DNA of 64,000 nucleotides from Sugiyamaella lignohabitans (Eukaryota; Ascomycota; Dipodascomycetes; Dipodascales; Trichomonascaceae), in the NCBI RefSeq assembly GCF_001640025.1, contig NC_031674.1:1736001-1800000 (forward strand), in the 5' to 3' direction. The notes under the pieces were generated by a model that did not search any database, was not told the DNA's origin, and was given only the letters and a program-made list of their open reading frames with translations. Positions 1,726 to 58,554 of the stretch are shown here, one piece after another; the first letter of the stretch is position 1; each line of letters opens with the position of its first letter. A program made the translations under genes and the position numbers.

Positions 1726-2069
1726 GTTTGTCACCCCATCCACGGTCGTCTCACCAGGCAGGCGACCAAAGGATGAGCCTCTGTCGACTCGTCACAAACA
1801 AAAAAAGAGACGAGAGAGACGCTGGCAAGACACTTTGAATGCATATAAAATAATCCCCGTCTAGATCTGAGCTCCCGCTACTACGTGTATATGCAGGTTC
1901 GGCCCAAAAGTTTTTTTACGTACCTTTTGAACTATTTGTTTATGTTATATTTGCTATATTGTAAGAAGAAGCATCGACCAGCCACCACGAACGCAGCCAC
2001 TCCTGCGAAGCAGGAGCAACCAGGGTCTGGGGCGGAGCCCCAGCCGCCGGAGGCAGTCTAACCACCCCC
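1726..2069. other. Intergenic, convergent 3' flanks
   Basis: Holds the 3' flanks of the eIF4G gene and of the minus-strand membrane-protein gene. AT-rich around 1910-1965, with one DHE at its right end. No gene seen. Confidence 0.7.
2000..2055 (-). repeat. DHE, type A, solo
   Basis: Reference type-A copy, 56 bp. Read on the minus strand: TGCCTCCGGCGG, hairpin 1 CTGGGGC-TCC-GCCCCAG (7-bp stem, 3-nt loop), linker ACCCTGGTTG, hairpin 2 CTCCTGC-TTC-GCAGGAG. It begins about 15 nt after the stop codon of the minus-strand gene ending at 2070 and lies in that gene's sense orientation. Confidence 0.95.
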
Positions 2070-3068
2070 CTACGGATGCTCGTCGGCGTAATTAGCAAGA
2101 TGGTGGAGTCTTTTGACGACGCGACGGCCATAGTGGACCCTTCGTCGGGGTTGTGCTGTCGTTTGGAGGTCATTCTCGTCGCTGGAGTGTGGATTTTGCG
2201 TCAATTCGAGCTCGTCGGATTTGCCCAGCGTCCCGTAGGGGTACTTATTAACGGCAGAGGAGTTGAAAGAGCGTCGTTTTGAGCTGCGAGAGAGCGTAAC
2301 GGCATAGGATCGAGGGTGCGAGTTGCGGCCCCAGATTCGATTCGTGATATCGGGCAGAAGCGTATCGATAGTATCCGCAAGCCAGCTGTTTTGTTCGTTG
2401 GCAACAGCAGCACGTCTGGCAGCAACAGGAGACGACTCGTCAGGCCGCCAACCTGTGACAAACACATCAGTTTCATGAGCAATGTCAGAAGTAACCGACG
2501 ACGAAACGTAGAACGTATTTGCCCGAAACAGCGAGCGACGGTGAACTACAGCCTTGTCAAGACCGAGCTGATGGATCTGCCAGGGGATTTTCAGGCCTGT
2601 GAACCTGTTAGCAGTACTGATAGGAGCTCTGTTCCAGAACAGTTCGTGGATCACACCAAAATCGAGCTCACCGGTCTCACAGCCAGTAAACCCTGCGCCG
2701 CGAGACAGAAGAGACTTGTTCGCCAATTTTCCAGCAGACTTTTTTTCACGTTTATAGTCTGGAGTGATGAGAACCATGACGATATACGAGAACAGTAGAG
2801 CAATCTCCAGAGGAATAATTACGAAAAAGTACGTCGCAGACACTCCTAGAGCCACCAAATCCCGCAGGAAAAAAATGCTTTTAATCACAAACACACAGCT
2901 CATCAACGCCAAATTCACCAACATCCGGTACACAGTAAACGACCAGGTCCCTCTGAACCTTCGCTCTGCGCTGATAAGCAGCTCGTCCAGTTCCGGGTCC
3001 GGCCATACCCCATCCAGAAACTCCTCCTTGTCACTCGCATCCCCTTCTCTCGACCTTTCAGCAGCCAT
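2070..3068 (-). CDS. Unknown membrane protein, hydrophobic N-terminal third
   Basis: An uninterrupted 332-residue frame. An in-frame TGA 15 nt upstream fixes the start at 3068. An acidic N-terminus (about residues 1-35) is followed by a long hydrophobic zone (about 48-102) that can hold two membrane segments. The remaining 230 residues are hydrophilic and rich in basic and Ser residues. I do not recognise a family; a resemblance to nuclear-rim proteins of the Nur1 type was considered but I see no clear motif. The start lies only 59 nt downstream of the stop of the preceding gene on the same strand, very tight for a yeast, and no DHE separates the two. A DHE follows this gene's own stop. Confidence 0.7.
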   Translation of the reverse strand: MAAERSREGDASDKEEFLDGVWPDPELDELLISAERRFRGTWSFTVYRMLVNLALMSCVFVIKSIFFLRDLVALGVSATYFFVIIPLEIALLFSYIVMVLITPDYKREKKSAGKLANKSLLSRGAGFTGCETGELDFGVIHELFWNRAPISTANRFTGLKIPWQIHQLGLDKAVVHRRSLFRANTFYVSSSVTSDIAHETDVFVTGWRPDESSPVAARRAAVANEQNSWLADTIDTLLPDITNRIWGRNSHPRSYAVTLSRSSKRRSFNSSAVNKYPYGTLGKSDELELTQNPHSSDENDLQTTAQPRRRVHYGRRVVKRLHHLANYADEHP

Positions 3069-3127
3069 TTCAGCTTCACCTCAATCCGACCCTCACTGTT
3101 CGGAAACCAAGTCACTAGCTCACCTGC

Positions 3128-3920
3128 TCAGACGAAACCCACTCTATAAATACCCAGCATACAAACCCTGGCAACCTGACTCGTCGCCTCGGCCGCTACC
3201 TGCCCCACAGACGACAGGTCACTCGCGGCCCTCATCTCCTGATACCAAAGATCTACACTCGTTAGCTGCCTCACTTCTGGGAGGGGGTGTGCCTCCGGCG
3301 GCTGGGGCTCCGCCCCAGACCCTGGTTGCTCCTCTCGCTTCGCTCGAGTCGTTGCTAGGGGGTCCGGGAGCACCTGGAAGGGCTGTTTCTGTGCATAAAT
3401 CAGGCACTTGTGGGACTTACGGCCTTGATTTTTTCCGAGAAATGCGAAATTCCGGCGTAGACCAGCAGCACAGACGTTATCAGCACAAACGAGTAAATAA
3501 AAAACTGGTCCTTCACGGACTCGCGCTCTGCAATTCATGTTAGTAAATGAGGCACATCATTCACACCTTCCTCCTCCAAAACCCCCAAAACTGGCTGCTA
3601 CCGCCAACGCAACTCCTCGAGCGCAGCGAGAGGAGCAACCAGGGTCTGGGGCGGAGCCCCAGCCGCCGGAGGCACACCCACTTACGGAAACACGAGGTGG
3701 ACACGGCCGCCGGGTCGGTCAGATTCTGGCACAGCGGCGACTGCTCGGTGCAGAATTTGCGAGTGCAGTTGTTACAAGTCAGGAGTTCTTTGTTAGGGCC
3801 CAGCAAAGGCACGACGGTGTAATTGAGGCCGCAATCACACCGGCAGAGTTGTAGATACCCCTGAACGAGCTGGATTGCCAGGGCCGTGGCCAGCAGAGCC
3901 AGTGTCTTTTGGAAATGCAT
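3128..3920 (-). CDS. Small Cys-rich secretory-pathway membrane protein (3 exons)
   Basis: Exons 3686-3920, 3421-3527 and 3128-3238 (minus strand) give about 150 residues. The start at 3920 is the first ATG in frame and begins a signal peptide (about residues 1-21). A luminal domain follows with eight cysteines (26, 28, 30, 49, 52, 57, 64, 77), including a CxxCTRxFC motif, then one membrane segment (about 87-108). This resembles a conserved fungal family of unnamed membrane proteins known to me only as hypothetical. Intron 1 (158 bp) has GTAAGT and ACTAAC...TTGCAG. Intron 2 (182 bp) starts GTAAGT; its 3' site is taken at GGTATCAG because the nearer TAG would stop the frame, so the last exon is the least certain part. 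Each intron carries one DHE. Confidence 0.65.
3290..3351 (+). repeat. DHE, type B, solo, inside an intron
   Basis: Perfect hairpin 1; the tail hairpin is type B, ending GCTCGAGTCG. It lies in intron 2 of the Cys-rich membrane-protein gene, antisense to that gene, 69 nt from the 5' splice site. Confidence 0.93.
3617..3674 (-). repeat. DHE, type B, solo, inside an intron
   Basis: Lies in intron 1 of the same gene, in sense orientation, starting 11 nt after its 5' splice site. The tail hairpin loop is changed (GCAGC instead of GAAGC), while hairpin 1 is intact. Confidence 0.93.
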
Positions 3921-4780: not shown

Positions 4781-6049
4781 ATGGCAACAGCAGTGGCGGC
4801 TTCGTCAGTGCCTCAACCGGCTACTAGCAGTAATGCGACCGGATCCACTAAACTTAGTGGCCAAAAGTCGAATGCCGAGAGTGGCGTGGTTCCTTTTTTT
4901 GCACAAAAAATTGAAGAAACCGAGTTTCAAATCAATGAAAAGACCCAGAACTTGAGACGTCTCGAGGCCCAGCGCAACGCACTTAATGCCAAAGTGCGTC
5001 TATTGAAGGAAGAACTTCAACTGTTACAAGAACCTGGGTCATATGTTGGAGAAGTGGTTAAAGTCATGGGAAAGGAAAAAGTTCTTGTTAAAGTCCATCC
5101 CGAGGGGAAATACGTGGTTGATATCGCGTCGGATATCGATATTAAAAAGATCACTCCCAGTCTTCGAGTGTGTCTGCGATCCGATTCGTACCAATTACAC
5201 CAGATCTTGCCTAATAAAGTGGATCCTCTGGTGTCTTTGATGATGGTGGAAAAGGTTCCTGACAGTACTTTTGACATGGTCGGTGGTTTAGATAAACAGA
5301 TCAAGGAGATTAAAGAGGTCATTGAACTGCCTGTTAAGCATCCTGAACTTTTTGAGTCACTTGGAATTGCCCAACCTAAAGGTGTAATTCTGTATGGACC
5401 TCCTGGTACCGGAAAGACTCTGTTGGCCCGTGCTGTGGCCCATCATACCGAATGTAAATTTATTCGTGTCAGCGGTTCCGAGCTGGTACAAAAGTATATC
5501 GGTGAGGGTTCGAGAATGGTCCGTGAGTTGTTTGTTATGGCCCGTGAGCATGCTCCCAGTATTATTTTCATGGACGAGATCGATTCCATTGGATCCAGTC
5601 GTGTAGAGGGTTCGAGCGGTGGTGATTCCGAAGTACAAAGAACCATGTTGGAGTTATTAAACCAGTTGGACGGATTCGAGTCTTCTAAAGATATCAAGAT
5701 CATTATGGCCACCAATCGTCTGGATATTCTAGATCCTGCTCTGTTAAGGCCTGGTCGTATCGACCGTAAAATCGAGTTCCCTCCACCCACTGTTGAGGCC
5801 CGTACCGATATTCTGCGGATCCACTCGCGATCTATGAACCTGACCCGTGGCATCAATCTCCGCAAGATTGCCGAGAAAATGAACGGCTGCTCCGGTGCCG
5901 AAGTCAAGGGTGTCTGTACCGAAGCCGGTATGTACGCACTCCGTGAACGTCGTATCCACGTCAACCAAGAAGACTTCGAGCTCGCCGTGGCCAAGGTTAT
6001 GTCCCGCAACGACGAGGGCCAAATCTCCCTCGCCAAGTTCTTTAAATAG
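4781..6049 (+). CDS. RPT6: 26S proteasome regulatory ATPase Rpt6
   Basis: 422 residues, close to the usual length for this subunit. It is one of six AAA ATPases in the base of the 19S regulatory particle, which unfold ubiquitinated substrates and feed them into the 20S core. N-terminal coiled coil (about residues 45-85, heptads around [20 protein letters not shown]), OB domain, then the AAA domain with Walker A GPPGTGKT at 206-213, Walker B IIFMDEID at 261-268, sensor ATNR and the arginine-finger region RPGRIDRKI. It ends LAKFFK, the short hydrophobic Rpt6-type tail. No intron. CTG codons fall on the conserved Leu of [11 protein letters not shown], which shows that CTG is read as Leu in this organism. 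Confidence 0.97.
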
Positions 6050-6096
6050 TCTTTTTCCCTATCTAATACAATCCTCTTCATCCTCTGTCCCCCCTC

Positions 6097-6152
6097 TGCC
6101 TCCGGCGGCTGGGGCTCCGCCCCAGACCCGGGTTACTCCTGCTTCGCAGGAG
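6097..6152 (+). repeat. DHE, type A, solo
   Basis: Sense-oriented to RPT6, about 47 nt after its stop. Two linker substitutions (CCCGGGTTA); both stems intact. Confidence 0.93.
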
Positions 6153-6200: not shown

Positions 6201-6316
6201 GTGAGAGAGGATCGTGCTTTGAGGTGATAGGTGAAGCTATTTGGTACGTCATATGCTTGTGAGAGAGGATCGTGCTTTGAGGTGATAGGTGAAGCTATTT
6301 GGTACGTCATATGCTT
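6201..6316. repeat. 58-bp perfect tandem duplication
   Basis: 6201-6258 and 6259-6316 are the same 58-bp sequence (starting GTGAGAGAGGATCGTG, ending around CATATGCTT), joined head to tail. No mismatch seen, so the duplication is recent or maintained. Non-coding. Confidence 0.9.
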
Positions 6317-6794: not shown

Positions 6795-6850
6795 CTCCTG
6801 CGAAGCAGGAGCAACCAGGGTCTGGGGCGGAGCCCCAGCCGCCGGAGGCA
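6795..6850 (-). repeat. DHE, type A, solo
   Basis: Sense-oriented to YNG2, about 85 nt after its stop. Canonical sequence. Confidence 0.95.
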
Positions 6851-6935: not shown

Positions 6936-8196
6936 TTACTTGCGTCGTTTGTTGGACGAGGTGTCTTTGAAGTCGGGACCGGCATCGCGGGCTTCTTTCC
7001 GTTCTTTGGTACAGGTAGGACAGTACCAGGTACCGGAAGGCGGTTCCTTCAAACCGACACAGTCGTAGTGGAACCATTCGTACTGACAGTCGGGGTTATC
7101 ACAGGCAACCATGTTTCCAAACGACACCTGTTGACATGTACAATAAAGAACCTCTTCTTCTTCACGAACAGCACTCGTTAGACCGCCATTATGACTGCCA
7201 ACACCTCCAGACATCGGGACACCTAATCCATTAGCGCTGTTCATAACAGCAGCAGAAGAAGCACCAAGAGGTCGGTTCGATGTATGTTTAACAGAAACTC
7301 CATTTGGAGACGAAGCTGCTGTCGATAAATCATCATCCATTGCCACCATTGCAAGACGTTGTCGTTTTGATGGCCGAGCTGATGCCATTGGAGTGGAACT
7401 CCGTGACGCGCCAGGAGCTGGTGAACCCCGTTTCCTGTCTGATCCCGATATTCCAGCAGTAATAGCAGTTGAAGAAGCCATTCTAGAACTGGCAAGAGCA
7501 CCACTTCTGCCACTAGTAGCGCCAGGTCCATGTGTCGACTCTCTACCAGCCGGAACCGACCCCTGTCTGGTCGACGGAGCCGAGTCGGTATTATACGAGG
7601 AATACAGACCATTTGATGCCGATGGCGATGCTGGTGCTAGAAGTCCTTCTTCCTCGAGTTTCTTAATATCGTCGTTCAGTTTCTTGACCTGTTTGGAAAT
7701 AATATAAAGCCCCGTATTGGCGAGATCGCACTTGGCCTGCTGGATACCCATGGCCTTCTCGAAATCAGCGCGAATCTTCGGATACGCCGCTGCCTCTTTC
7801 GGATTATCTGCCAACGACCCATTTGCCCGAATAAACTTATGAATCTGGTTATCGCGCTGTTGAATCCGTTTCCTCGTCTCATAAAACTTCATATCCTTAT
7901 CGCCAATCTCCTCGAGAATATACGCGATTTCCGCCGGCAAATTCGTCACTGGCTCATTAGTACTCTATCCACGCGTGGTTGGGGTCTGCCTCCGGCGGCT
8001 GGGGCTCCGCCCCAGACCCTGGTTGCTCCTCTCGCTTCGCTCGAGTCGTTTTTCTTCCTGGTCCCCACGCCTCTCCTGCGAAGCAGGAGCAACCAGGGTC
8101 TGGGGCGGAGCCCCAGCCGCCGGAGGCAAACCGGGCAAAAAAGTTCGTCAACTTACAATCCGACACGTACTGCTCCAGTACCGACGCCGCATCCAT
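6936..8196 (-). CDS. YNG2: ING-family NuA4 subunit Yng2 (PHD finger), 2 exons
   Basis: Exon 1 8157-8196 and exon 2 6936-7948 encode 350 residues. The spliced N-terminus [20 protein letters not shown] matches the ING domain of yeast Yng2. A long Ser/Ala-rich linker and a C-terminal PHD finger (about residues 284-326) follow, with the Cys4-His-Cys3 pattern around [21 protein letters not shown] and WYCPTC. Yng2 belongs to the NuA4 histone H4/H2A acetyltransferase; its PHD reads H3K4 methylation. The 208-bp intron (7949-8156) starts GTAAGT, has branch point ACTAAT and ends GAGCCAG; it is filled by one DHE composite. It is convergent with RPT6 and co-directional with SET9 upstream. Confidence 0.93.
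7987..8128. repeat. DHE composite (B+ / A-) inside the YNG2 intron
   Basis: B arm 7987-8048 and A arm 8073-8128 as an inverted pair around a 24-nt spacer (TTTTCTTCCTGGTCCCCACG). On the YNG2 sense strand the A arm comes first. It starts 28 nt after the 5' splice site and ends 38 nt before the 3' splice site. Without it the intron would be 66 bp. Confidence 0.95.
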
Positions 8197-8331: not shown

Positions 8332-8472
8332 TGCCTCCGGCGGCTGGGGCTCCGCCCCAGACCCTGGTTGCTCCTGCTTCGCAGGAGAGGTGTGGCGATA
8401 GTCGGAGAAACGACTCGAGCGGAGCGAGAGGAGCAGCCAGGGTCTGGGGCGGAGCCCCAGCCGCCGGAGGCA
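8332..8472. repeat. DHE composite (A+ / B-) between SET9 and YNG2
   Basis: A arm 8332-8387, B arm 8411-8472. The B arm is sense-oriented to SET9 and starts about 48 nt after its stop. The A arm faces the YNG2 start, 136 nt away. Confidence 0.95.
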
Positions 8473-10839: not shown

Positions 10840-12042
10840 AATAAAAAAGAATGGAAAATATATATCTTGCAAAGAATTTGTGTGACAAAGTCAACTCGAG
10901 CCAGAGAATGGATCGCTCGGTTAAAATGTCCTTGTGTATGCAGTGAAGGGGACTATGGTATTTTGCTCTCACAATAGATTGTCCTGTCCTATAGCATGCT
11001 AATGTCTTTTGAGCTGGCTATTAATTTTTGACTGTGATTTGAAATGATATCGAGTTTGGCTTTAAAGATGGTCTTTGTAATTACCCTTGTTAATGACACT
11101 TGTGTCGACCCTAAAATGAACTGGAAATGACCAAAAAATGACCCAAAATAGCCCAAGAAGGTCCTAAAAATGCCTTTCGCACAATATAATCCCGGCAGTT
11201 GTTTACAGTTGCCGTTGGTGTGTCACTTTTCAGCTGAACTTCCAACTGAAATTTCACTTTTCAATCCGATTATGCCTTTGAGACCTAGTCCAGGAGCTTG
11301 TTAGTCTACAGTTGTTGTTCAACCACGAAACCGGCTCGACCACTGGATATCGAAGTTTTTCTCAGACCACCGAACCTCCTGCTCCACAAGATTCCGATTT
11401 AACTTTTGTGTTCTGAATAATGTCTGATGTCGCAGCGACAACCACAACAACAACAAATAAACTTAATGCAGAAGACACCGGACTCTCGAGGCTGACAATT
11501 CTGAAATAACGGTACAAAAAAGCCCTCAGAGAACCTTCTTTTCACACTCTTTTTTGTTCCCGCTTTTCACACTCTCTCCAGCGATGGAATCCAGACCCCG
11601 ACCCACTACCAGAACCAGCTCAAGTCCTTCTCACCGGGACAACCTTTTCTTAATCACTGAACAAAAACACCCTCTAACTCACTCTAACTCTCCACGCTGC
11701 ATACCTGCATGAACCCTGGCCGTGCGGCTGCGCACTCCGGGGGACAGGGGGTCTGCCTCCGGCGGCTGGGGCTCCGCCCCAGACCCTGGTAGCTCCTCTC
11801 GCTCCGCTCGAGTCGTTTCTCTGACCGGTCCCCAAACCTCTCCTGCGAAGCAGGAGCAACCAGGGTCTGGGGCGGAGCCCCAGCCGCCGGAGGCAGACCC
11901 CCCGACCCCATCGCGGCTACCTACGCGCGGGTGCTGCCAGGGGGATATGAGAACAGGAGCGGTATTGCAGATGGAGATCTCGTTTATTACGTCTTTGGAA
12001 GTAGTTATTGTTGCCAAAGTTGAGAGTCCGTTCCAGCATGTC
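10840..12042. other. Divergent promoter region of SET9 and VAC1/PEP7
   Basis: About 1.2 kb without a supported gene. The left part is AT-rich; 11550-11700 is pyrimidine-rich on the plus strand (CTCTAACTC repeats). One DHE composite lies close to the PEP7 start. Open frames reading through the composite are artefacts. Confidence 0.65.
11754..11895. repeat. DHE composite (B+ / A-) upstream of VAC1/PEP7
   Basis: B arm 11754-11815 (loop GCTCCGC), A arm 11840-11895, spacer containing CTGACCGGTCCCC. Flanking bases continue the inverted repeat (GGGGGTCT left, AGACCCCC right). It ends 147 nt before the chosen PEP7 ATG, and is one of the few composites clearly in a 5' flank. Confidence 0.95.
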
Positions 12043-14505
12043 ATGTCTCGTCGTTCGCGAGTGTTTGGGCCTCCGGGAACGGGTGTGGGTGTAAAGCCGT
12101 TTGCTACTTCGCCTTTGAAATCGTCGCCTTTGGCAACTCCACCAGTCAGTGCTGATGGCAGCGGCTCTGGCTCTAACAGTAGGGAGGACAGCCAGAATTT
12201 GCATTTGTCAGGAGTCAAGTCTCCCCTGGTGGGTTCGTTACTATCCAGTCCAAAACGTGTGGACTCGCCTCCCAGCAGTAGTGAACTGTCACTTTCCGAA
12301 TCAGTCAGCTCCAGTATCACTTCAGATGATACTACTATCGTACCGGAGCCGGCTTTTGATAAGCACGCCAGAGCCAGTGGAGGATCCAGCTTGCCAGTGT
12401 CGGTTCCTGGATCAGCTCCTGCTTTGAATGATGTTAATGGTTTTAGAGATGGACCAAGTGGTGAGCTAGGTTTTGAGTCTGTTATCAACTCGGGATACGG
12501 TTTGAGTGGTGCTGATGCTGGTGCTGGTTCTGGTAGTGGTAGCAGCCATGGACACAGTGGCTCTTCGAATATGGATATAGGAGACCAGTTGCATGATATT
12601 TCCAGTCTGGCTGCTTCAGGATCTGGGTTTTCTGGGTTGGATGGAGATGGTATTAAAGAATTGGTGGTTCCATCGTCGTTTGATTTGGCAACGTCGTCAG
12701 ATGATGTACCGAGTCTGATAGTGACAGATTCAGGAGTTGGTTCGGAAGTTGGTTCGGGAACTGGTTCAGCAGTCCCGGATCTGATGTGCCCGATTTGTGG
12801 TGATTCAATGGTGTCACTGCTTCAGCTGAACAGACATTTGGATGATGCCCACTCCGAGACAGTGACTCCGACCGAGAACGAGCAACTCAAAGGTTGGTTC
12901 AGAAAAAAGGTCGAACAGGCTAAACAGATCCAGCAGTTGCAAACTGTCACTTCAGTGTTTAGCCAGTCGCTGAATTTGAATTTGTTTGATGACAGTGGAA
13001 GCGACAGATCGGTAGTAGTAGGTTCTGGTACCAGTTCTGGCGCTGGAGTTGGAGCTGGGACGGGATCTGGCGGAAATGCAAGTGGTAGTTCGACTCCGAG
13101 ACGAAATGTTCAAGATAAATCCGAAGCAGTGACTCGAAAACACTGGAAAAATCATGGCACTGGTCCTGCTGGTCGAGACAAATGCTCGTACCCGACCTGT
13201 GACAAACTCCTTGTGTCTCGAAATGGTGCTATTCATTGTCGACAATGTGGCCAGTTGTTCTGTCGAGAACACAGCATGTACCAGATGAAACTGGCTCCTC
13301 AAACTGCCCGACACGATCCAACCAGCGGATCCAGTGTCTGGTGTCGAGTATGTCAGACTTGTTATGAGTCGCGTCCAGGATATAACGATCATTCGGGCAC
13401 CGTTCATGACCTGTCGGCATATTTTCTACAAGTTCGACAGAAACAAGTTGATATTAACGAATTAGAAGTGAACCGGCTTGAAAAACGGTTGATAAGACTA
13501 ATACGAGCTCTGGCTGATCTCGGTGAGGGCTTGTTTACATACACGACCAGCATACGCAGGAAATCGATAGAACATCACGTAGCTGTATGGCAGAATGATA
13601 AGGATGTACACAATTGTCCTATTTGCTCTCAAAAGTTTGGCTACTCGTTGCGAAAACATCACTGTCGAGTATGTGGCCAAGTCGTGTGTGCCGACTTGGG
13701 TACCGACTGTTCACGAGACGTTCCAATCAGTGTCCTCTCCAATAAGCTGGATAATGGGACGAACCAGCTTCCTCGCCGCGACGATATAGGTATTCGAATA
13801 TGCCGCGACTGTAAACGAACAATATTTGCCAAACGAAACTTTGAAGCCGAAGGTCAAGCCGACCGGCCTGATATGCTTAAAATCTACGATTCCATGGCTC
13901 ATATCAAACATTCTATTGATATCAGTCTTCCCAAATTCCAAGATATGTTAATGAAACTCAACGACCCCGAAAATCCCCCTCCCCACCAAGTTCTAGACGA
14001 AGCAGCCACTGTACGACGCAAGCTGCTCCAGTCATTTTCACAATACGACAGCATGGCCCGTAAAGTGCTGACTGCCGATGCATTACGAGAAACCGATAAA
14101 AGGCTCCAGAAACAAATATACCAGGTAGCTGCCCAGTATCTTCAAGAAAACATGTTACCATTAAAAGCACTTCCACGAGCCCTTAAACACAATAAAGCCG
14201 CCGCCGCTGCTGTTGCTTCTACCGAAGTGAGCAGCAGCAATTCCAGCATCTCCGAGAACATGGATCCCAGCTCAACTTCGACTCCTGTTCCACCTACACC
14301 GCTACTGTCTGATGACGAGATCCAATCGTACCGTGAACAACTCATTGTCATGGAAGAACAGAAGTTCATGGTCGAGAACATGATCTCCGAGTCCAAAACA
14401 CACCGCAGATTCAACGAAGTTGCTCCTCTCGAGGAAAACCTCCGTGACCTAGAACAAGAAGTCTCGCGAATCAAATCCGTGCTTGGCTCCTACGTCATCA
14501 CCTAA
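12043..14505 (+). CDS. PEP7: Endosomal Rab5 effector Vac1/Pep7 (C2H2 + two FYVE-type fingers)
   Basis: 820 residues. Start chosen at 12043 (MSRRSRVFGPPG), because the frame farther upstream runs through a DHE. Ser/Gly-rich N-terminus; C2H2 finger (about residue 249, CPICGDSMVSLLQLNRHLDDAH); a FYVE-like finger (about 381-450, CRQCGQLFC); and a canonical FYVE finger (about 525-590, CPICSQKFGYSLRKHHCRVCG, with the RKHHCR phosphoinositide motif). A C-terminal coiled region (about 755-818) corresponds to the Rab-binding end. The family binds PtdIns3P and the Rab Vps21 on endosomes and promotes Golgi-to-vacuole vesicle docking with Vps45 and Pep12. No intron. It ends 61 nt before a sense DHE. Confidence 0.93.
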   Translation: MSRRSRVFGPPGTGVGVKPFATSPLKSSPLATPPVSADGSGSGSNSREDSQNLHLSGVKSPLVGSLLSSPKRVDSPPSSSELSLSESVSSSITSDDTTIVPEPAFDKHARASGGSSLPVSVPGSAPALNDVNGFRDGPSGELGFESVINSGYGLSGADAGAGSGSGSSHGHSGSSNMDIGDQLHDISSLAASGSGFSGLDGDGIKELVVPSSFDLATSSDDVPSLIVTDSGVGSEVGSGTGSAVPDLMCPICGDSMVSLLQLNRHLDDAHSETVTPTENEQLKGWFRKKVEQAKQIQQLQTVTSVFSQSLNLNLFDDSGSDRSVVVGSGTSSGAGVGAGTGSGGNASGSSTPRRNVQDKSEAVTRKHWKNHGTGPAGRDKCSYPTCDKLLVSRNGAIHCRQCGQLFCREHSMYQMKLAPQTARHDPTSGSSVWCRVCQTCYESRPGYNDHSGTVHDLSAYFLQVRQKQVDINELEVNRLEKRLIRLIRALADLGEGLFTYTTSIRRKSIEHHVAVWQNDKDVHNCPICSQKFGYSLRKHHCRVCGQVVCADLGTDCSRDVPISVLSNKLDNGTNQLPRRDDIGIRICRDCKRTIFAKRNFEAEGQADRPDMLKIYDSMAHIKHSIDISLPKFQDMLMKLNDPENPPPHQVLDEAATVRRKLLQSFSQYDSMARKVLTADALRETDKRLQKQIYQVAAQYLQENMLPLKALPRALKHNKAAAAAVASTEVSSSNSSISENMDPSSTSTPVPPTPLLSDDEIQSYREQLIVMEEQKFMVENMISESKTHRRFNEVAPLEENLRDLEQEVSRIKSVLGSYVIT

Positions 14506-14565: not shown

Positions 14566-14626
14566 TGCCTCCGGCGGCTGGGGCTTCGCCCCAGACCCCA
14601 CGGCTCCTCTCGCTTCGCTCGAGTCG
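14566..14626 (+). repeat. DHE, type B, solo
   Basis: Sense to PEP7, 60 nt after its stop. Hairpin-1 loop is TTC instead of TCC with the stem unchanged; linker ACCCCACG. Confidence 0.93.
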
Positions 14627-15130: not shown

Positions 15131-15374
15131 CCATGTCCGTTCACTGACATTCCCGTTCACGCGTCGTCCGTCCTGTGCTACGTGCGATCACTGACATGTC
15201 CATTCACTGGCATACCCGATCACTGACATGCCCGATCACTGACATGCCCATTCACTGACATACCCTTTCACTGACATGACCATTCACTGACATGCCCGTT
15301 CACTGATATGTGCGATCACTGATATGTGCGATCACTGACATGCCCGATCACTGACATGTCCATTCACTGACATG
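15131..15374. repeat. 16-bp minisatellite array (CACTGACATGYCCATT-like), copy 1
   Basis: About 12 tandem 16-bp units from 15184 to 15374, each built on CACTGACAT, with a less regular lead-in from 15131. Unit differences cluster at the same positions (ATT/GAT before CACTG; GTCC/GCCC/GTGC after ACAT). The left flank (TGTGCTACGTGCGATCACTG) and right flank (CTGAATGAAATAGTGAG) recur at the second array near 32.5-32.8 kb. Confidence 0.93.
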
Positions 15375-15548: not shown

Positions 15549-15604
15549 TGCCTCCGGCGGCTGGGGCTCCGCCCCAGACCCTGGTTGCTCCTGCTTCGCA
15601 GGAG
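15549..15604 (+). repeat. DHE, type A, solo, not gene-proximal
   Basis: Canonical copy about 1 kb downstream of PEP7 and 390 nt from the HEM15 stop. One of few solos not adjacent to a stop codon or in an intron. Confidence 0.95.
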
Positions 15605-15905: not shown

Positions 15906-15961
15906 CTCCTGCGAAGCAGGAGCAACCAGGGTCTGGGGCGGAGCCCCAGCCGCCGGAGGCA
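15906..15961 (-). repeat. DHE, type A, solo
   Basis: Sense to HEM15, about 29 nt after its stop. Canonical sequence. Confidence 0.95.
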
Positions 15962-17305: not shown

Positions 17306-17924
17306 TGGAAATGGGCTGTTGTTGAATGGAGAAGGTCAATTGTGGCGTTCAATGGTCAACCACGCCACTCTCACTACCGAGACCGAGCTAACCTGCGAGC
17401 AACTGAAAAATGCCGATCAGTCACCCCCATCGGGCCCAGACCCTCCTGCACCGATCGGCGCAGCCCCCCTGAACCCTGAACCTTCCCCCGCTCTCACCAC
17501 CCCTCACGGGTATGAACCGGCACCAAAACCCGTGTCTCGAACCCACCGCACCCGCTCTTTCGCTCCTGGTCACTGTCAAACCCCGCCAGGGACCGGGAAA
17601 ACAGGCTCGCCGCGGGCGCCACATGGCCTGCAGCTGGACCCTGGCACGGATTCAGGGGGTGGCACCTGCCTCCGGCGGCTGGGGCTCCGCCCCAGACCCT
17701 GGCTGCTCCTCTCGCTACGCTCGAGTCGTTCCGTGGACGGATCCTCCTAAAAACTCCTGCGAAGCAGGAGCAACCAGGGTCTGGGGCGGAGCCCCAGCCG
17801 CCGGAGGCAGGTCCCCCATCAGCCGTGCGGGGGTGAGAAACGTGATTGAGGTTCACGAGAGTACGAGAGTGAGACGACGCCAGATCCGATCAAGAGACCC
17901 AATTGGTAGAAAGTGCGGTGCGGG
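17306..17924. other. Divergent promoter HEM15 / ALE1
   Basis: About 620 bp, GC-rich in the middle (17480-17640), with a DHE composite nearer ALE1. No gene supported. Confidence 0.6.
17667..17809. repeat. DHE composite (B+ / A-) in the HEM15/ALE1 promoter region
   Basis: B arm 17667-17728 (loop GCTACGC), A arm 17754-17809, spacer CCGTGGACGGATCCTCC. Flanks extend the inverted repeat (GGGGGTGGCACC left, GGTCCCCC right). It ends 115 nt before the ALE1 ATG. Confidence 0.95.
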
Positions 17925-43828: not shown

Positions 43829-45909
43829 ATGTGCCAAATTTTCCTCATAGAGTTCCAATTGGTCTACGTTGAACACAGGGTTTTATTGCGTCAAGACTTG
43901 GGTAACAATAGACGGTAGGCGTTGTCGTTGATTTTTGCCGCAATTGTAAAGGGTCCAATCCATTTCCTATCAATTTTGCGTTTTGGACCTCGGTCATGGT
44001 TAAGCTTGTCCGTGGAAAGTAAAACTCGATCCGTCAGTTTGAAAACTTTGTGAATTCGATGCTTGTTGTGATACTTAGCTTGCTGCTGTTGGCTGTGTCG
44101 AATTATTTCCTTAGTACTGTTGTGGAGGTCAGCCTGACGTGCTCACTTGGCTTCCATTGTTGGATAAGCTTCCGCGGCTTCAAAATTGAAATGAATATTG
44201 GGTTCGAACCCAAACACTACCTTATAAGGGCTGTTCTTGATAGATTCATTATAAGTGGCGTTGATGGCGAAGGTGGCTTCCGACAATAACTCAGACCAAT
44301 CGTTGTGCTGAAGTTTAATATATTCCGCGATATGGCGTGTGACTTCCCTGTTCATGGGTTCTGTCTGATCATCCGTCTGAGGGTGGTATGCAGCGGAGAA
44401 CTGAAGTTTAATATCTCGACTCGCGGTGAATGATCGCCAAAAGTTTGATGTAAATTGCGTGCCTCTATCTGAGATGATGGTGTCGGGACGGCCAAAGCGG
44501 TCGAAGTAGTCTTTCATACACGTTGCGAGTTCTATGGCGTTGGTGTTGGTGGAGCATGGGTAACACTGGACGTATTTGCTGAAGCAGTCAACAATCACTA
44601 GAACCTGAGTTGACTTCCGGGGACCAGATTCCGGCAAGCTCGTTACAAAATCTAATGATATGGATTGGAAAGGGCGATCGGGGATCGGTAAAGGCTCTAA
44701 GAGGCCGTATGGTGCGTGGTTGCGTATTCGGAATTTTTGACATGTCAAGCAACTTTTGACGTATTTTTCCACATACTCGCTGATGTGGGGCCATGTGAAA
44801 ACTTCAGTTAATGTTTGTCTCGTGCGACGAATTCCGTGATGACCGCCAATCCAATGATCGTGGAAAAGTTTGATCAAATTCTCACGTAAATCTTCATCCA
44901 CTCCTACGACAATTTTTCCCAGGTAACACAAAATATCATTTCTATAAGAATAACAAAGTTTATCCTTCTTGTCGCCTGGGAATGGACTGTGTTGGGGACT
45001 ACGGAAGTGTTGAAGAATCTTTGAGTACTTAGGATCTTTCTCCAGAGATTGATTTATCCGATTGATCATCTCGGCGTCGTGCGAAAAGGCCACAGATTGT
45101 ATTGACTTTTGAGAAGTAGCTGTCGCTTCCACCGGTCGTTTCACGGATTGGGGATTGCGTGTTTGTTGACTTTTGTTCGTCTGTCTACTGCAGTCCTTTG
45201 TGTTGTGTCCGTGGCTCTTGTGAATCGAGCACCATTTGGTTGATTTCCCTTTCCCTATCCCTTGTAGTTCGACATGCTGCTCTGCTCTCAGGGTTGCCAT
45301 GCGCACGAAGTCGTCAACAGTTAAATCTTTGTGCTCGCTGTTCAGTCGCTCCAATTCTTGACGGAAACGCACATTTTGTACCGCCGCAATCAATTGACTA
45401 ATCACCACGTCCTCGTCTAACTTGGAGTGTTGGGCCTCAACGCGCTTTCTAGTTAAGAATTCCGGGTAATCCGAGATCTTGTTGCATTTCTCATTAAGCA
45501 ACTTGGCCCGTGCATTTTTTGTCGCTTGTGCATGTTGTTTTTCGAGTAGGGTCCATAAGTTCTCCCAAGGGTATGGCTCTTGTTCGAACCAATGAATTGC
45601 CTGGATTTTGTAATCGGATTTAGGTAAGAGACTGATGATGTCTGTTGCTACGTCTGCATCTGATTGGGTGCGTTCACGATATGCCACGTATCTCTTTGCA
45701 CGTCTGAGCCACAGAAGTGTGGTTTCGACGGTATAAGGTGGAGGAGGGGGGTTGGATTCGGTTTTGGGGCGTGAGTAGGAATTGCCGAGGCCGTGCTTAT
45801 GACTAATCGATTCCCATTGTTTAGTCTTATTCTTGTCCATACCTTCAAGGAAAGGTGCCGTATCCCCTTCTAAGGAGTCGACCTGAGTGACGGCAAGCTC
45901 TTTGGTCAT
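43829..45909 (-). pseudogene. Ty3/gypsy relic: in-frame Gag-integrase fusion lacking protease/RT/RNase H
   Basis: A 588-codon frame (45909-44143). Residues about 60-215 look like Gag; a zinc knuckle follows (C227, H230, H235, C240). A short linker then goes directly into the RNase H-integrase spacer, an HHCC zinc domain (about 346-390) and an integrase core with D420, D481 and E517, i.e. D,D(35)E. Protease, reverse transcriptase and RNase H are missing without loss of frame. A TGA at 44145-44143 ends the frame before the GPY/F-like C-terminal module, which continues in the same frame to a second TGA at 43893-43891; the remaining end is frameshifted. A dead, internally deleted copy, although the fused frame itself is intact. 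No LTR pair identified. Confidence 0.85.
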
Positions 45910-50126: not shown

Positions 50127-50181
50127 CTCCTGCGAAGCAGGAGCAACGGGGTTTGGGGCGGAGCCCCAGCCGCCGGAGGCA
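50127..50181 (-). repeat. DHE, type A, solo
   Basis: Sense to the CHIP-like gene, 59 nt after its stop. Linker CAACGGGG and one stem change (TTTGGGGC). A possible badly decayed second copy at about 50014-50060 is too degenerate to call. Confidence 0.9.
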
Positions 50182-51589: not shown

Positions 51590-52690
51590 TAGTTATGATT
51601 TGCTCCAATATACAATCTACTGCATCTATCAAGGACAGTCCTGATTAGATCTATCCGATATATATCAAGTTTACCGTTCCGAAATAACCTGTCAAAACTC
51701 AGATTAGCTAAGACGACTGGGATGGAACATTGCAGAATCTTGATAGCGCCGTTCTACCTGCCTTTCTGCATTATCAAAATCAGGGGTAATGTGCATGCAT
51801 ATCCTCAACAGGAAGCGATCTACCGGTGGTTTCATATTTATTGAGGCACCATTTGCTTCTATCGTTGATATTTAACTATATGAAACATGAGCAGCATAAA
51901 AGGCCAAGTCACTAAAGCACCGAAAAGTAACCAGAAAGAGAAAGAGTATATATTACATGCCTCATATTTTGTTTTCGATAAAGCAGGAGTGATAAGTATT
52001 GCAAATAAACGTCATATATTTTAGAAGTTTGATGTTGTTAATTGATGAGAAATAAGAGTTATTGTTTTCTTTTTGAATTCATATTCAATACCTATTGAAC
52101 ACTTACGATTGATTCAATCACTGAAATAGTTTTATCATGTTTGTTTAAAGAGAGATCATTGTCACCGCTCTAATCGATATCTGGCCGATACTCGAGCACC
52201 GATATTCCTGGTCTGAAACACAATGAGGCTCCGAAAGCCTCCAGTAGGAGAATGAACCAACATCCTAAGCTCGGGGTGTAATATTTTACAATGGTCTTGT
52301 CGATAGGAAAAATTATAATTAATAATATTTTTTATTCTTCTTTATAATTTATTATTTTAATATAATTATATGAATAGGATGTTCGAATTAATATAATTCA
52401 TAATATTTCGTTCCCCTTCTTATGTATGATTAGTACAATTCAAGCAATTTCCGTGCCATGATTTAAAGATCACCAAGAGCGTTCTCAGGCAGGAGCATTG
52501 ATATGCAATCTGAAGGGCCAAAAAAACACAACCAGCCTTACTAGATTTGTAAAAGATCGACATGAATAGTTAAATCTCGGAATTTGGCCAAATAAATCGA
52601 ATCATATCCCTAGATATACAAAAATTGGAGGAGAGCTCTCTTTTAATATAACGGACTCAAAAACAAGGGAATTGTGAAAATTCCAGATAA
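51590..52690. other. AT-rich intergenic between the CHIP-like gene and tRNA-Cys
   Basis: 1.1 kb, very AT-rich at 52310-52400. GGGGTGTAATATTTTACA at about 52275 recalls an LTR end on the minus strand but is unsupported. No gene. Confidence 0.5.
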
Positions 52691-52778
52691 GCTCGTGTGG
52701 CGTAACGGTAGCGCGTGAGATTGCAATTCTTTAATTACAAACATCTTTAGGTTCCCGGTTCGAATCCGGGCACGAGCT
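52691..52778 (+). tRNA. tRNA-Cys (GCA) with a 16-nt intron
   Basis: Acceptor GCTCGTG pairs with CACGAGC; D arm GGCGTAACGGTAGCGC; anticodon GCA in TTGCAA; T arm CCCGG-TTCGAAT-CCGGG. The extra bases 52727-52742 (TTCTTTAATTACAAAC) sit one base after the anticodon, the standard place for a tRNA intron. The lower anticodon stem has one T-T mismatch. T-run terminator just downstream. The exon sequence resembles yeast tRNA-Cys. Confidence 0.92.
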
Positions 52779-53721
52779 TTATCTTTTTTTGGCTCGATGA
52801 CGTTCGCTAATTTCGGAATGACCGTATGGTTTTTTATTTCCTATCCATTATTGACTTAAACTACAGTCTCGTGAACCAATATAAACATATCTGATGGAAA
52901 CTAGCCCAATATTAAACTCTTCTAAGGGTCAACTTCATCGCTTCTTTATCCACTATCTTCAAAAAAAAAAATAAAAAAATTCGTGACGACAATCACAAAA
53001 TTACCTCAAGGGAGAAGACCTATGCTAAAGGAAAGAAATGAATAAAGTTTCTATGTAGAGTTTAACTTTAATTACAGGACCCGCTAGCGCAGGGCACGTA
53101 AATGATGTTCCACAGAAAATGCCTGTTTCATAAATGGTACGGCTGAACTGATATGTTTATTGTATGAAGATGAACACAGGAGGTTAGGTGAGGTTTGGTT
53201 TACACGTAGATACACAGGCCGGATAAATAGATCAGTCGGCACGAGGAGATCTGTCAACAGTCCAGCCGTTATTTCGTTTATTTTTGTTTTGCGAAACGCG
53301 GGTCGTGTGTTTCTTTGTACACAAAATCTTGTTTGATCTCAAAGTAAGTGGTTCTGTTGGGTTGGCTTTGAAAAATGGTGACTTTGTCGTGATTTCGGAG
53401 ATACCATTGAAATATCAGTGGATTAGATTGATTGTAAACAATGGTGAATCCCCAGAAGATTTAATCCTAGCGACTGATATTTCGATCCGGAATCCCCGGG
53501 GGTTCCCGGCGAAATCTCCTGCGAAGCAGGAGCCACGGGGTCTTGGGCAGCGCCCCAACTGCCGGGTTTTCTCAGCTTTATCAGGAGATTTCTAGAATTG
53601 TTGACTAACACGAGATAGATAACCGGCGAACTAGAGTGTCCATCTGTTAACGATATAATACATCGTCAATTGAGTTTAACTGTCAGGACTGGCAATTGGT
53701 CGTGATCCGTGTCATCGTTCC
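52779..53721. other. Promoter side of the GT34 gene
   Basis: 940 bp. A-rich at 52960-52980, one decayed DHE near 53.5 kb. The open frame 53284-53595 runs through the DHE and is not supported. Confidence 0.55.
53516..53567 (-). repeat. DHE, type A, strongly decayed
   Basis: Tail hairpin CTCCTGC-GAA-GCAGGAG intact, but hairpin 1 is TTGGGC-AGC-GCCCCAA and the end is CTGCCGGG instead of CCGCCGGAGGCA. Its changes still allow a shorter hairpin 1. Confidence 0.75.
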
Positions 53722-55206: not shown

Positions 55207-56593
55207 ATCTTCTAGCTAGTAAATTGTATTTTTAGACTTTTCTCAGGTGCGTTACGCATTATTCGGAGCTTGAGACTTCGCAAAGGCACCTGAACCGGAA
55301 GATCCAGCTCCACACTTACGTAAGAATAAGCAATGGTGGCACCTGCCTCCGGCGGCTGGGGCTCCGCCCCAGACCCTGGTTGCTCCTCTCGCTGCGCTCG
55401 AGTCGTTTCTCCGCCCAAAGTATGTACTCCAGTATTATCTTCCGGCGCGATATGCTCCAACCGGCGGGCTGCGAGAACGCTATAAATTTTAAGAAGGAAA
55501 ATTATTGTATTTAGTTGAAGAAGAATGGGCATGTTTAGTCAGTGTAAAAGAAACCGTGGTCCAAGATGGGATGTCCAAGATACTCGTAGACAAACCAGGA
55601 GGGAGAAGATTAGCTACTGGTAGTAATAAAAGTACCAATGACAGACGCTGGTTTTCTGAAATAGTTGTCAGATATCGTAGCAGCATGAGTGGCTAGTCAA
55701 TGTCCTGAGCTATTTGGAGCTACAATGGCAATTGGCATTCCTGGGTGTGGAAAATGATCCACTAGCATAACGAAGACCAATTAAAGATGAGTCATGGAAA
55801 ACATACCAAATCTAGTGCAGTCAAGCGACATGATTTGGACATGATATCAATCCGTGACACACCTAGTCATTGCAGTATACAGAGTATGTTCCAATTCATA
55901 ACAGATGGAGGATGTCAGAGCCAGTGGTTGTAGTATAATAGCTTTGTCATTTTCTTGCAAAATGGATCTGAAAAACTCAGGATAGATTATCAGCTAGTTT
56001 GCAATTCAAAGTAAGGAAAAGGATAAAGAATTAATAATAATATTATATTAATACAAGGTAGTAGAAGGGCCCGGCCCAGATAATAACGAAACTTCACACT
56101 AATTCACCAGGTACTCAGATTCCAGCGCTCCCACAAGCACAAATCAGACAAATAAAAGGATGGAAACAAAAGCACGCTCATTGACTAGACTTCCTACTGG
56201 ACATGGAGTACCAACTAGTGCTACATGATCCGAAAATAGTACTCGGATATGAGAGTAGCTGAAGATGCTAGTGCGTGCAATGAAACTGGATAGTGAAACT
56301 AAGGAACTGCTCTGGCTGAAACATCAGGGTATGCCTCGGGATGACAATACCAGATCTAGATTAGTCAAGCGACAGGACACCACATCGCGACACGTCTAGT
56401 CTTAGGGGGAAGATGCTGCCAATGTCCAAAGTTTATCTGATTTATGGAAACTGAAGTACCGGGCGAATTGATAGTGATAATGAAGTAGAGACTGAAGAGT
56501 GTCTCCGGTGAGTGAATGAAATTGTAATGCCGAAAAAAAAGTTTGTTTACGTTCCATGTGGTCTCTAGAGGAATTAATGAGACGAACGACAAA
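55207..56593. other. Intergenic, convergent region
   Basis: 1.4 kb. One DHE near the GT34 stop. Minus-strand frames at 55489-55686 and 55212-55532 (the latter through the DHE) have hydrophobic N-termini, but I cannot connect them into a gene. The rest is AT-rich without visible structure. Confidence 0.5.
55344..55405 (+). repeat. DHE, type B, solo
   Basis: Sense to the GT34 gene, 137 nt after its stop. Tail loop GCTGCGC. Confidence 0.94.
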
Positions 56594-57268
56594 CTATTGA
56601 GTGACTTGGGATGATGACTTCTTCTTGAAGAACTTCTTAAGTTTCTTGAATTTGAGAAAAGACTTTCTGGGTTTGGTTGTCGTTTCAACGGAAGAAGACG
56701 ACTCAGATGATGTGGAGGTAACCTCGGTGGAATCCTTTGAGGAATGTTTTTTAAACTTCAACTTCTTGAATAATCGCTTAATTCCGGATTTCTTCTTCTT
56801 TGGAATTGCCTGTGTCTGTAATGGTGACAATTCAATGGCAGGAGTTGCCAATGTCTGTAATGGCGACATGGCTGGGTTCTGAGATGCAGTGATAGATGGA
56901 ATCAGAGAACTCACATCGGACGAAGTGCCTACAATTTTGTTTATCTGCTCAGAAGCAAGAATTGTTCCTGTTCTCGAATTCTTGACAACCTTCTGACTGC
57001 GGTAGGCATGATTCCCACCAGCAGAGAAGACCAGGCATGTTTTACCCATTGCTTTACCAAGAGCAGAAGCAGCTCCGACCACCAATTTATCTCCCACAGT
57101 CGGTTGGGGTTTGGATGGTTGGCGGACAATCTCAGGGGTACCATCATGATCGGGGTACGGAACATAGAGGAAGCAGTAGACGAGATAACCAATAAAGAGG
57201 AAGAAAAAAATGATGGAATAAATCAAGCAGAGCTTGGCAACAAGAGGGGTCTCAATTTCGTTCGTCAT
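56594..57268 (-). CDS. Unknown one-TM protein with a Lys/Ser-rich tail
   Basis: 224 residues from the ATG at 57268 (MTNEIETPLVAKLC); the frame runs farther upstream but is Phe/Cys-rich leader-like there. One membrane segment (about 14-37), a juxtamembrane PYPDHDGTP, a moderately conserved-looking block TVGDKLVVGAASALGKAMGK, a duplicated SPLQTLATPAIELSPLQTQ, then a C-terminal half of Lys-Phe-Lys and Ser/Thr runs. Predicted type with a short N-terminal side and basic C-terminal tail; no family recognised. No DHE follows it. A TATATATA lies at about 57500, roughly 235 bp upstream. Confidence 0.65.
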   Translation of the reverse strand: MTNEIETPLVAKLCLIYSIIFFFLFIGYLVYCFLYVPYPDHDGTPEIVRQPSKPQPTVGDKLVVGAASALGKAMGKTCLVFSAGGNHAYRSQKVVKNSRTGTILASEQINKIVGTSSDVSSLIPSITASQNPAMSPLQTLATPAIELSPLQTQAIPKKKKSGIKRLFKKLKFKKHSSKDSTEVTSTSSESSSSVETTTKPRKSFLKFKKLKKFFKKKSSSQVTQ

Positions 57269-58554
57269 GATTGCACCAGTAGTCCAGAAACTAATAGGAT
57301 GAGAACAATCAAGACAATCAAAACAATCACAAAAAAACACAATAAAAATAATAAAATAATCCAGTAAACAATCAGTTACTAGCGGCGCAAACACGGGGTG
57401 ATCTTCAAAACGTTAAAATCTCGATGTAACAAAATTGTTCAGCGAGTCAAACGTTGTGTCAAAGATGAAGAAAAATCTATCAGACGGGGCGGACAGCCCC
57501 TGTATATATACTTTTAATTTATAAATTATGGCGCTTTTGAATTATGCGGAGAGGGTCATGTGGTAAGGGAAGCATCGGTATAGTGCTTGAACCTGCATCA
57601 ACACGTATATCGAGCGTGAAGCACGTGACAGGCAAAAGTTCCTTAATACTTCATCACGGTCTGTCTGAACCCGAAAACACGTAATTAGTGACTAGAACAA
57701 ATAGTCCGTAGTTTTCAGGGAGTCTAGGATTTTTTCTGTACTTTTACCAGTCAAAACTCATGTGACTCAAATGATCTGCGAGGTGACGATAATCGCGATA
57801 ATGCATCATGCAATCAATCCCTGCATTGATAAGGCAAGTCGGTTATCAAGCTCAGGGTCCAACTAAATTTACATTTGTTTAGTGAAAAAAGACAAAAAGC
57901 TACTGATTATTTTTGAAGTTTGCCGAGTGTTGTGCTATATTGCCTCTATATATTTAATCTTGATTCGAATCCATTATCAATTGGCATCTTAACATGCCCC
58001 AATGACTGCCAATGGAGGCATGATTGAAACTCGAAATAAGGTTGAGAACAATACAATTCGTAATAGAAAGCTCAAATTAGTATCTTAGAGAGTGGAATGA
58101 CTGGCGAGTAGGATCCTGAATTCAATATGAGGTAGCCAGACTTGTTGAATCGATCTGTTGACAGTCTGTATCACACTCTATACCATTCCATATCGTGTCT
58201 GGTTCGAACATTCATATGCCCACTGGTCCAACAGTCTCCATTCTGAAGGAAGTACTAGATACAAATGTGTTTATTCATATTATGTGCTACACACCCGGTC
58301 ACAGACGTAGTGGGACAACAGAGGTATCCAAAGTCTCGACCAGCCCGGTTATGGTCTCACACCTCGATCCACTCCTAGTTCTTTTTGCCCAGAGCCAGGG
58401 CACCCCACGTAAACGACTCGAGCGAAGCGAGAGGAGCCACGGGGTCTGGGGCAGCGCCCCAGCCGCCGGAGGCAGACCCGGTACCTGAAACACGTCGCAG
58501 GACGTGGCAGCAGACTGTGACAGATAAATAAATAAATTGTTAAATATGCAGATG
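57269..58554. other. Intergenic
   Basis: 1.3 kb. Contains the promoter of the one-TM gene on the left and the SSN3 3' flank with a DHE on the right. No gene supported. Confidence 0.55.
58414..58474 (-). repeat. DHE, type B, solo
   Basis: Sense to SSN3, 80 nt after its stop. Hairpin-1 loop is GCT in reading sense, as in type C copies, but the tail is type B, showing that the two hairpins vary independently. Confidence 0.94.

Follow-up and report, generated by a model that had tools for sequence, protein, structure and literature searches.

A near-palindromic repeat of the yeast Sugiyamaella lignohabitans tends to face coding sequence after, before and inside genes

Introduction

Miniature inverted-repeat transposable elements (MITEs) and foldback elements are short, non-coding and carry long terminal inverted repeats, and introners are repeated elements that occur in many introns. 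In fungal mitochondrial DNA, GC-rich palindromic clusters and double hairpin elements lie dispersed between genes, as described in an excerpt of PMC5499181. In bacteria, REPINs (doublets of repetitive extragenic palindromes, REPs, forming hairpins) consist of inverted palindromes with a less conserved spacer, their singlets being more diverged; the excerpt of PMC3116915 that describes them makes no mention of an orientation toward genes. Here we characterize a nuclear repeat of S. lignohabitans whose architecture resembles that of REPINs most closely. It was analysed in a window of 64,000 nucleotides (nt), positions 1,736,001-1,800,000 of contig NC_031674.1 (C2 in the following), and in the genome searched (15,932,016 bases on 4 contigs). 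An earlier note on the window had taken the element, from its uniform orientation past stop codons, to be transcribed in 3' untranslated regions (3' UTRs) and possibly to act at 3' ends. We find that this orientation is real, yet part of a wider pattern in which the arms of the repeat tend to face exons before, inside and after genes.

Results

Architecture and abundance of the repeat

The unit of the repeat is a near-palindrome of about 140 bp, composed of an S arm, a spacer of about 25 nt and an inverted L arm. Each arm is about 55-59 bp long and contains two hairpins: TGCCTCCGGCGG leads into hairpin 1 (CTGGGGC-loop-GCCCCAG), which ACCC and a short linker separate from hairpin 2. The latter defines the main types S (CTCCTGC..GCAGGAG), L (CTCCTCTCGC..GCTCGAG) and M (GTGCTCGC..GCGAGC). 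The TGCCTCC end of an arm is called its front, two inverted arms with their fronts outward a composite, and a single arm a solo.

Arms were detected with a 33-nt fuzzy arm model (at most 5 errors) in three sets: the window, an element-blind sample (20 regions of 10 kb, 200 kb in total, taken at fixed spacing regardless of content from 0.3-1.66 Mb of contigs C1 and C2 only) and an element-chosen sample (30 loci, merged into 11 pieces). A search with nhmmer added 12 arms at E <0.01, one of which was clipped by a locus edge.

The window contains 57 copies of TGCCTCC where 7.9 are expected, and the 55 arms found there form 17 composites and 21 solos. Genome-wide, the exact 19-mer TGCCTCCGGCGGCTGGGGC gave 2,675 forward and 2,667 reverse matches, while the pattern read backwards gave 0; exact composites numbered 1,064. 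Extrapolating from the 127 arms of the element-blind 200 kb, we estimate a total of about 10,100 arms, or 3.6% of the bases. Neighbouring arms less than 200 nt apart were in plus-minus order in 49 of 61 pairs. Composites typically pair the two types: among the 49 of the window and the element-blind sample, 39 were S+L, one SS, one LL and 8 contained M or untyped arms, and over all sets (n = 70) the counts were 54 S+L, 4 same-type and 12 with M or untyped arms. S and L solos were equally frequent (32 and 32 of 84). In the 54 S/L composites the arms are conserved and the spacer is variable, pair identity averaging 0.955 among S arms, 0.930 among L arms and 0.541 among spacers (0.429 after shuffling). 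Composites with more diverged spacers did not have significantly more arm mismatches (summed Spearman -0.04, p 0.78; -0.19, p 0.16 for S arms alone). Folded as RNA, one intronic composite was predicted to form a single long hairpin of -142.5 kcal/mol (z -15.7).

No target-site duplication was detected. Direct flank similarity gave z 0.0 for 49 composites, and among duplications of 1-12 bp at 70 composites no length exceeded all 300 shuffles (best, 3 nt, 6 cases versus a mean of 2.8 and a maximum of 7). Insertion inside a pre-existing palindrome found weak support: inverted flank similarity reached z 2.5 for 49 composites, and the best single positions of 20 tested z 2.7 and 2.0 for 70 composites.

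Among the literature matches listed (titles and abstract starts, with poor coverage of subscription journals) no description of the element was found, and the exact motif strings returned 0 papers. Neither "palindrom" nor "hairpin" occurs in the excerpt of PMC13130702, on a relative. The exact arm 26-mer gave 0 matches in viral contigs.

Arms front stop codons

Genes were represented by open reading frames (ORFs) of at least 150 aa as proxies, without annotation, and a stop was scored positive when an element lay within 250 nt. In the window this was the case for 17 of 21 stops, with 12 sense solos, 4 composites and one antisense arm (at 151 nt), in agreement with the earlier report of an arm at 19 of 23 stops. 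In the element-blind sample 30 of 65 stops carried an element: 14 had a sense solo (21-64 nt away), 13 a composite (1-83 nt) and 3 an antisense arm (10, 160 and 161 nt). The other 35 had none; elements are denser in the window than in this sample. The 17 stops of the element-chosen loci had 4 sense solos, 8 composites, 2 antisense arms and 3 without element.

Each solo was further assigned its closest ORF start or stop. With a limit of 300 nt, 59 of the 110 solos (window 4, element-blind 36, element-chosen 19) had no ORF end that near and were excluded; with a limit of 1 kb 39 were. Solos with a stop nearest within 300 nt turned their front to it in 34 cases and their back in 6 (window 13:1, element-blind 16:3, element-chosen 5:2). 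Within 1 kb the numbers were 36 and 14. The bias is replicated outside the window, in an element-blind sample of two contigs. It had been claimed that all 13 solos next to a nearest stop in the window stand front-first; we count 13 of 14, and the claim is fair because the sole exception (50127-50181) fronts a minus ORF of 127 aa, below our cut-off.

Arms front gene starts and intron-like splice ends

Solos with a start nearest within 300 nt all turned their front to it (11 front, 0 back; window 3:0, element-blind 8:0), and within 1 kb 18 did so against 3 with the back. An arm that fronts a start is antisense to the gene. Taking stops and starts within 300 nt together, the element-blind sample gave 24 fronts and 3 backs (binomial p 4.9e-5). 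Of the 11 start-facing solos, three may be intronic, as a branchpoint-like motif stands no more than 30 nt from their front; one further match falls within the ORF itself, and the remaining solos lack such a motif at that distance.

Intron-like sites were recognized by splice-type motifs in the DNA only. Genome-wide, a donor-like GTRAGT within 30 nt before a front gave 275 matches (130 before a composite) versus about 118 by chance, and a branchpoint-like CTAACAG within 30 nt beyond a front gave 141 (63 beyond a composite) versus about 15. Back counts cover the backs of S arms only: CTAACAG following such a back gave 4 matches versus about 7 by chance, and GTRAGT preceding it 18 versus about 53. 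In these counts one element may be tallied twice if its motif repeats (as in entries C2:1754098 and 1754102), and the chance values are our arithmetic from element-blind densities (98 fronts and 44 backs of S arms in 200 kb). In a sample of 250 fronts, 18 were preceded by GTRAGT and 5 by its reverse complement, 8 by CTGTTAG and one by CTAACAG. Fronts are thus enriched beside donor-like and branchpoint-like motifs, and S-arm backs are not. A rule by which the S arm comes first in introns was not supported: behind GTRAGT the L arm came first in 134 cases and the S arm in 70, the sample background being 88 L and 76 S.

The rule is hence exon-facing rather than gene-sense: what the borders tested have in common is coding sequence on the front side.

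The published intron content of S. lignohabitans is 5% of 6,820 genes according to an excerpt of PMC5499181. Compared with this content, the 275 donor-to-front matches suggest that a sizeable share of the introns holds the element.

As a side observation, fronts away from stops in the 327-kb sample are preceded by a G-rich collar at positions -14 to -3, with a G content of 0.48-0.56. In the collar positions G amounts to 0.50 at near-splice composite fronts, 0.37 at five near-splice solos and 0.32 at near-stop fronts; the origin of the collar is unexplained.

Position relative to the 3' UTR

Ahead of 26 near-stop sense solos, AT content was 68-74% in the bins at 20-60 nt from the arm (with 22, 19, 12 and 9 arms) and 39% in the final 10 nt; over the 120 nt past the element it was 36-51%. 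Before near-stop composites the bins at 20-60 nt contained 56-72% AT. Since 40 genes without element were also AT-rich (64-68% over the first 80 nt past the stop, then 55-64%), the tract itself is ordinary, and the arm ends it. By eye, runs such as TATTTATTA and AATAAA can be made out ahead of many near-stop arms. As the AT-rich stretch is expected to carry poly(A) signals, composition and position suggest that the arm probably lies in the last part of the 3' UTR or past the cleavage site.

This bears on the proposal of the earlier note that the arm may have a 3'-end role, be it in termination, in 3' processing such as the choice of poly(A) site, in mRNA stability or in the blocking of read-through. 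The position just past stops stands, sense solos and composites of the element-blind sample starting 1-83 nt behind them. The narrow spacing of the 14 element-blind sense solos, set apart from the distances of the antisense arms, fits such a function, as do the AT-rich stretch ahead of the arms and five solo stretches whose predicted folds are moderately more stable than those of shuffled sequences (z -1.7 to -3.2). The argument from orientation to function is weakened, however. Had a sense orientation been selected for a task at 3' ends, solos at starts should be oriented freely or in sense, but all 11 within 300 nt are antisense, and fronts also meet both splice ends of introns. A front bias common to stops, starts and splice ends makes orientation alone no argument for 3'-end function. 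With more than half of the element-blind stops devoid of an element the arm cannot be a general 3'-end signal, and the 24 near-stop composites show no S/L polarity (10 LS, 9 SL). Overall we regard a 3'-end function as unlikely.

Elements and genes in the window

The elements of the window are given below in window coordinates, composites without strand; "sense" means sense to the gene whose stop is named.

2001-2055, minus, S solo: sense, 14 nt past the stop at 2070
3290-3344, plus, L solo: front toward CTAACGAG at 24 nt; intron-like
3620-3674, minus, L solo: GTAAGT starts 11 nt ahead of the front; intron-like
6097-6151, plus, S solo: sense, 47 nt past the proteasomal ATPase gene stop
6796-6850, minus, S solo: sense, 85 nt past the ING/PHD gene stop
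7987-8128, L-S composite: flanked by GTAAGT and CTAATGAG within the ING/PHD gene; intron-like
8332-8472, S-L composite: 48 nt past the stop of a minus ORF at 8521
11754-11895, L-S composite: 52 nt upstream of the FYVE ORF start
14566-14620, plus, L solo: sense, 60 nt past the FYVE gene stop
15549-15603, plus, S solo: back toward the ferrochelatase stop, 388 nt off
15907-15961, minus, S solo: sense, 29 nt past the ferrochelatase stop
17047-17191, L-S composite: follows GTAAGT within the ferrochelatase gene; intron-like, the pattern used giving no branchpoint match
17667-17809, L-S composite: between ORFs
18109-18247, S-L composite: flanked by GTGAGT and CTAAC within the MBOAT gene; intron-like
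19847-19992, L-S composite: between two convergent stops at 28 and 26 nt
22546-22600, plus, untyped solo: front toward the ankyrin/DHHC gene start at 254 nt; antisense to the gene
23238-23292, minus, M solo: sense, 108 nt past the stop at 23401
27682-27850, M-M composite
28035-28175, L-S composite
28327-28467, S-L composite
28601-28655, minus, S solo
30505-30645, S-L composite: PBI2-like/PFD4 pair, gene names from the earlier note only
31253-31392, S-L composite
34004-34148, S-L composite: flanked by GTAAGT and CTAACAG; intron-like
34766-34909, L-S composite: 37 nt past the stop at 34728
34950-35004, minus, S solo: sense, 35 nt past the stop at 35040
35964-36145, L-L composite
36645-36778, composite (L arm with a variant arm): precedes CTAAC within the N-acetylglutamate synthase gene; intron-like
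38345-38399, plus, M solo: sense, 7 nt past the stop at 38337
38453-38507, plus, M solo: sense, second copy past the stop at 38337
38750-38804, minus, L solo: sense, 54 nt past the VPS4 stop
40075-40129, plus, M solo: flanked by GTAAGT and CTAACAAG within the VPS4 gene; antisense to it, with the front on the CTAACAAG side
40841-40895, minus, S solo: sense, 99 nt past the stop at 40995
42146-42200, plus, M solo: front toward an ORF start 579 nt off
50127-50181, minus, S solo: back 152 nt from a plus-ORF stop; on the front side a minus ORF (127 aa) ending at 50241
53516-53565, minus, decayed S-like arm
55344-55398, plus, L solo: sense, 137 nt past the stop at 55206
58420-58474, minus, L solo: sense, 80 nt past the kinase gene stop
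60851-60987, L-S composite: 374 nt upstream of the kinase ORF start

Pfam domains identified the following genes:

4781-6049, proteasomal ATPase
6936-7892, ING/PHD
11947-14505, FYVE
15991-17004, ferrochelatase
18400-19818, MBOAT
20019-22292, ankyrin/DHHC
36970-38337, NAT domain of N-acetylglutamate synthase
38859-40016, Vps4_C

Several gene names given earlier agree with these domains. Two convergent pairs that had been described as having one copy each hold more: two plus arms and one minus arm at ARG2/VPS4, and a third arm, at 15549, at PEP7/HEM15.

Some other features of the window were recorded. A minus-strand ORF of 588 aa at 44143-45909 has Integrase_H2C2 and rve domains, and we take it to be a piece of a retrotransposon pol gene. 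The 2-kb bins between 46 and 58 kb have 36-44% GC and few arms (50127, 55344 and the decayed 53516). Tandem arrays with related 16-bp units, TCACTGACATGCCCGT and ATGTCCATTCACTGAC, lie about 17 kb apart at 15188-15374 and 32535-32793, and a perfect 58-bp tandem duplication occupies 6201-6316, between the solos at 6097 and 6850. A tRNA-Cys (GCA) of 90 bases is predicted at 52690-52779, the length suggesting an intron; at gathering cut-offs Rfam gave two tRNAs and nothing else in the window.

Origin of the solo arms

Composites meet the exon-facing rule by symmetry. For solos there are three options: either the exon-distal arm was lost, or insertion had a polarity, or exon-facing arms were kept.

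We tentatively favour the first option, at a probability of roughly 40%, in which composites would be the primary unit and solos would stem from central breakage, losses toward the exon being purged. The near-palindrome of about 140 bp would spread through non-coding DNA, often behind AT-rich gene ends and inside introns, and would behave much as bacterial REPINs do, being palindromic, mobile and non-autonomous. It would break at its centre, as a cruciform or hairpin, and repair would remove one arm plus the DNA outside that arm, leaving a solo. Deletions toward the exon would be purged and deletions away from it tolerated, such that the surviving arm would front the nearest exon on any side of the gene. 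Loss of DNA from the centre of palindromes is a known process; that it acted here, along with mobility and purging by selection, is what we infer. Consistent with this account, solos and composites of the element-blind sample lie similarly far from stops, S and L solos are at parity and the spacer is variable. In the 120 nt next to 80 S or L solos, 72 scored below 14 for the expected distal arm, so that most tested solos have no distal-arm sequence. Hairpin-capped breaks that are opened by MRX-Sae2 are described at yeast palindromes in an excerpt of PMC7999016.

Several observations weigh against central breakage. Random breakage should leave more distal-arm pieces than were seen, as only 8 of the 80 solos scored at least 14, two of them being neighbours of a known pair at locus L039, and the upstream control gave 5. 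Distant plus-minus solo pairs (200-1600 nt apart with no intervening ORF, n = 24) were of the same type in 12 cases and of different type in 4, with 8 untyped or M; independent halves predict about half of the 16 S/L-typed pairs to be alike, and the cause of this excess is unexplained. Many L solos carry a TCGGGCGTGG-like tail and type M is mostly solo (16 solos, 7 composite arms), for which reason some solos may be separate units. The near-stop fronts are without the G-rich collar (0.32 versus 0.48-0.56 at other fronts). Solos hardly exceed composite arms in divergence: pairwise identity was 0.946 versus 0.963, a difference reached in 4 of 200 permutations, and a mismatch test gave p 0.38 (of 250 arms, 12 indel-like ones were left out). 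According to the same excerpt of PMC7999016, yeast mends such breaks mainly by homologous recombination, and longer spacers reduce the risk, stalling in eukaryotic cells being seen with a 12-bp and not with a 52-bp spacer; the terms center-break and asymmetric deletion are absent from this excerpt.

Two other origins of solos were considered. Solo pairs as the ends of longer elements with shared content were not supported, as 74 ORF-free gaps gave 10 match rows of 19-56 nt. Decay of composites by point mutation found little support either, with few intermediates in the nhmmer search and few remnants.

Part of the same evidence agrees with a second option, in which the solo arm is itself mobile and inserts with a built-in polarity, front to exons. 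Single-stranded or nucleosome-free DNA at exon borders would be one conceivable target, and the composites would be older or special units. The similar distances of solos and composites from stops and the 72 solos without trace of a second arm suit it equally, and the own tails of L and M solos and the same-type excess of distant pairs (12 of 16), unlike the composites (54 different, 4 same), suit it in particular. The S+L composites are clearly units, though, and neither a target-site duplication nor a match to a Y1 transposase was seen. We know of no mechanism that reads the direction of the exon at promoters, donors, acceptors and stops alike. Insertion of solos with polarity is possible but rather doubtful in our view.

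In the third option the arms would be kept by selection as exon-boundary elements, such as a barrier for chromatin, topology or recombination, obliged to face coding sequence. The 93.0-95.5% identity of the arms next to diverging spacers is in line with this, and so is hairpin 1, which varies per position by 11-22% in the loop and by 0.4-2.9% in the stem (245 of 257 aligned arms, 12 indel-like ones left out). Mean mismatches per 30 nt were 0.23 where the front was no more than 110 nt from an ORF, 0.65 where it was 111-400 nt off and 0.40 at greater distances, but these differences are small and purely descriptive. In the 24 near-stop composites the proximal arm was better in 8, worse in 3 and equal in 13. 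A young or homogenised family would look the same, and many stops carry no arm. Boundary selection appears to be the least probable account considered here, somewhat behind a 3'-end function.

Discussion

With bacterial REPINs and REPs the repeat shares the inverted pair of palindromic units (the exact composites), a spacer less conserved than the palindromes, the location outside coding sequence and the high copy number. Single units also occur, and the two tests of their divergence given above disagree. In contrast to REPINs, the repeat resides in a eukaryotic nuclear genome with an estimated 10,000 or so arms, each of two hairpins and about 55-59 bp, and copies lie inside what appear to be spliceosomal introns. 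The Y1 domain of REP-associated tyrosine transposases (RAYTs; PF01797) had 0 matches in the yeast genome, whereas the control matched 5 of 14 genomes, all prokaryotes. For this reason we do not claim membership of the REPINs.

As in MITEs and foldback elements, the repeat is short and non-coding and the arms of a composite form terminal inverted repeats. Each arm can fold alone, however, composites combine two arm types, and since no target-site duplication of 1-12 bp was seen the repeat does not qualify as a standard MITE. The Helitron Rep/helicase domain (PF14214) had 0 matches in the yeast genome and likewise 0 in the control genomes. The mitochondrial clusters are likewise GC-rich, palindromic, dispersed and intergenic, but the yeast repeat lies on a 4.95-Mb contig with nuclear genes. 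Introners resemble it in being repeated in many introns. Here splice sites are no fixed part of the repeat, given that the spacing from donor to front varies in the matches displayed and that, with GTRAGT as the one donor motif counted, 130 of the 1,064 exact composites would have a match at 30 nt or less; the repeat thus does not qualify as an introner.

Taken at its broadest, the repeat could be a eukaryotic nuclear REPIN-like system in which about 10,000 near-identical arms border exons from both sides and within introns, front to coding sequence, their retention or placement depending on a process that recognizes exon borders and not the direction of transcription. We regard this as improbable, if a little less so than a role at 3' ends.

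That a single orientation rule holds at stops, starts and splice ends alike is unexpected for ordinary transposable elements or transcription signals, and it offers a testable distinction between insertion polarity and selective loss. If central breakage were the explanation, the genome of S. lignohabitans would naturally document a large number of breaks at palindromes. Should a REPIN-like architecture be borne out at gene ends and within introns of a yeast nucleus, this type of element would extend beyond bacteria.

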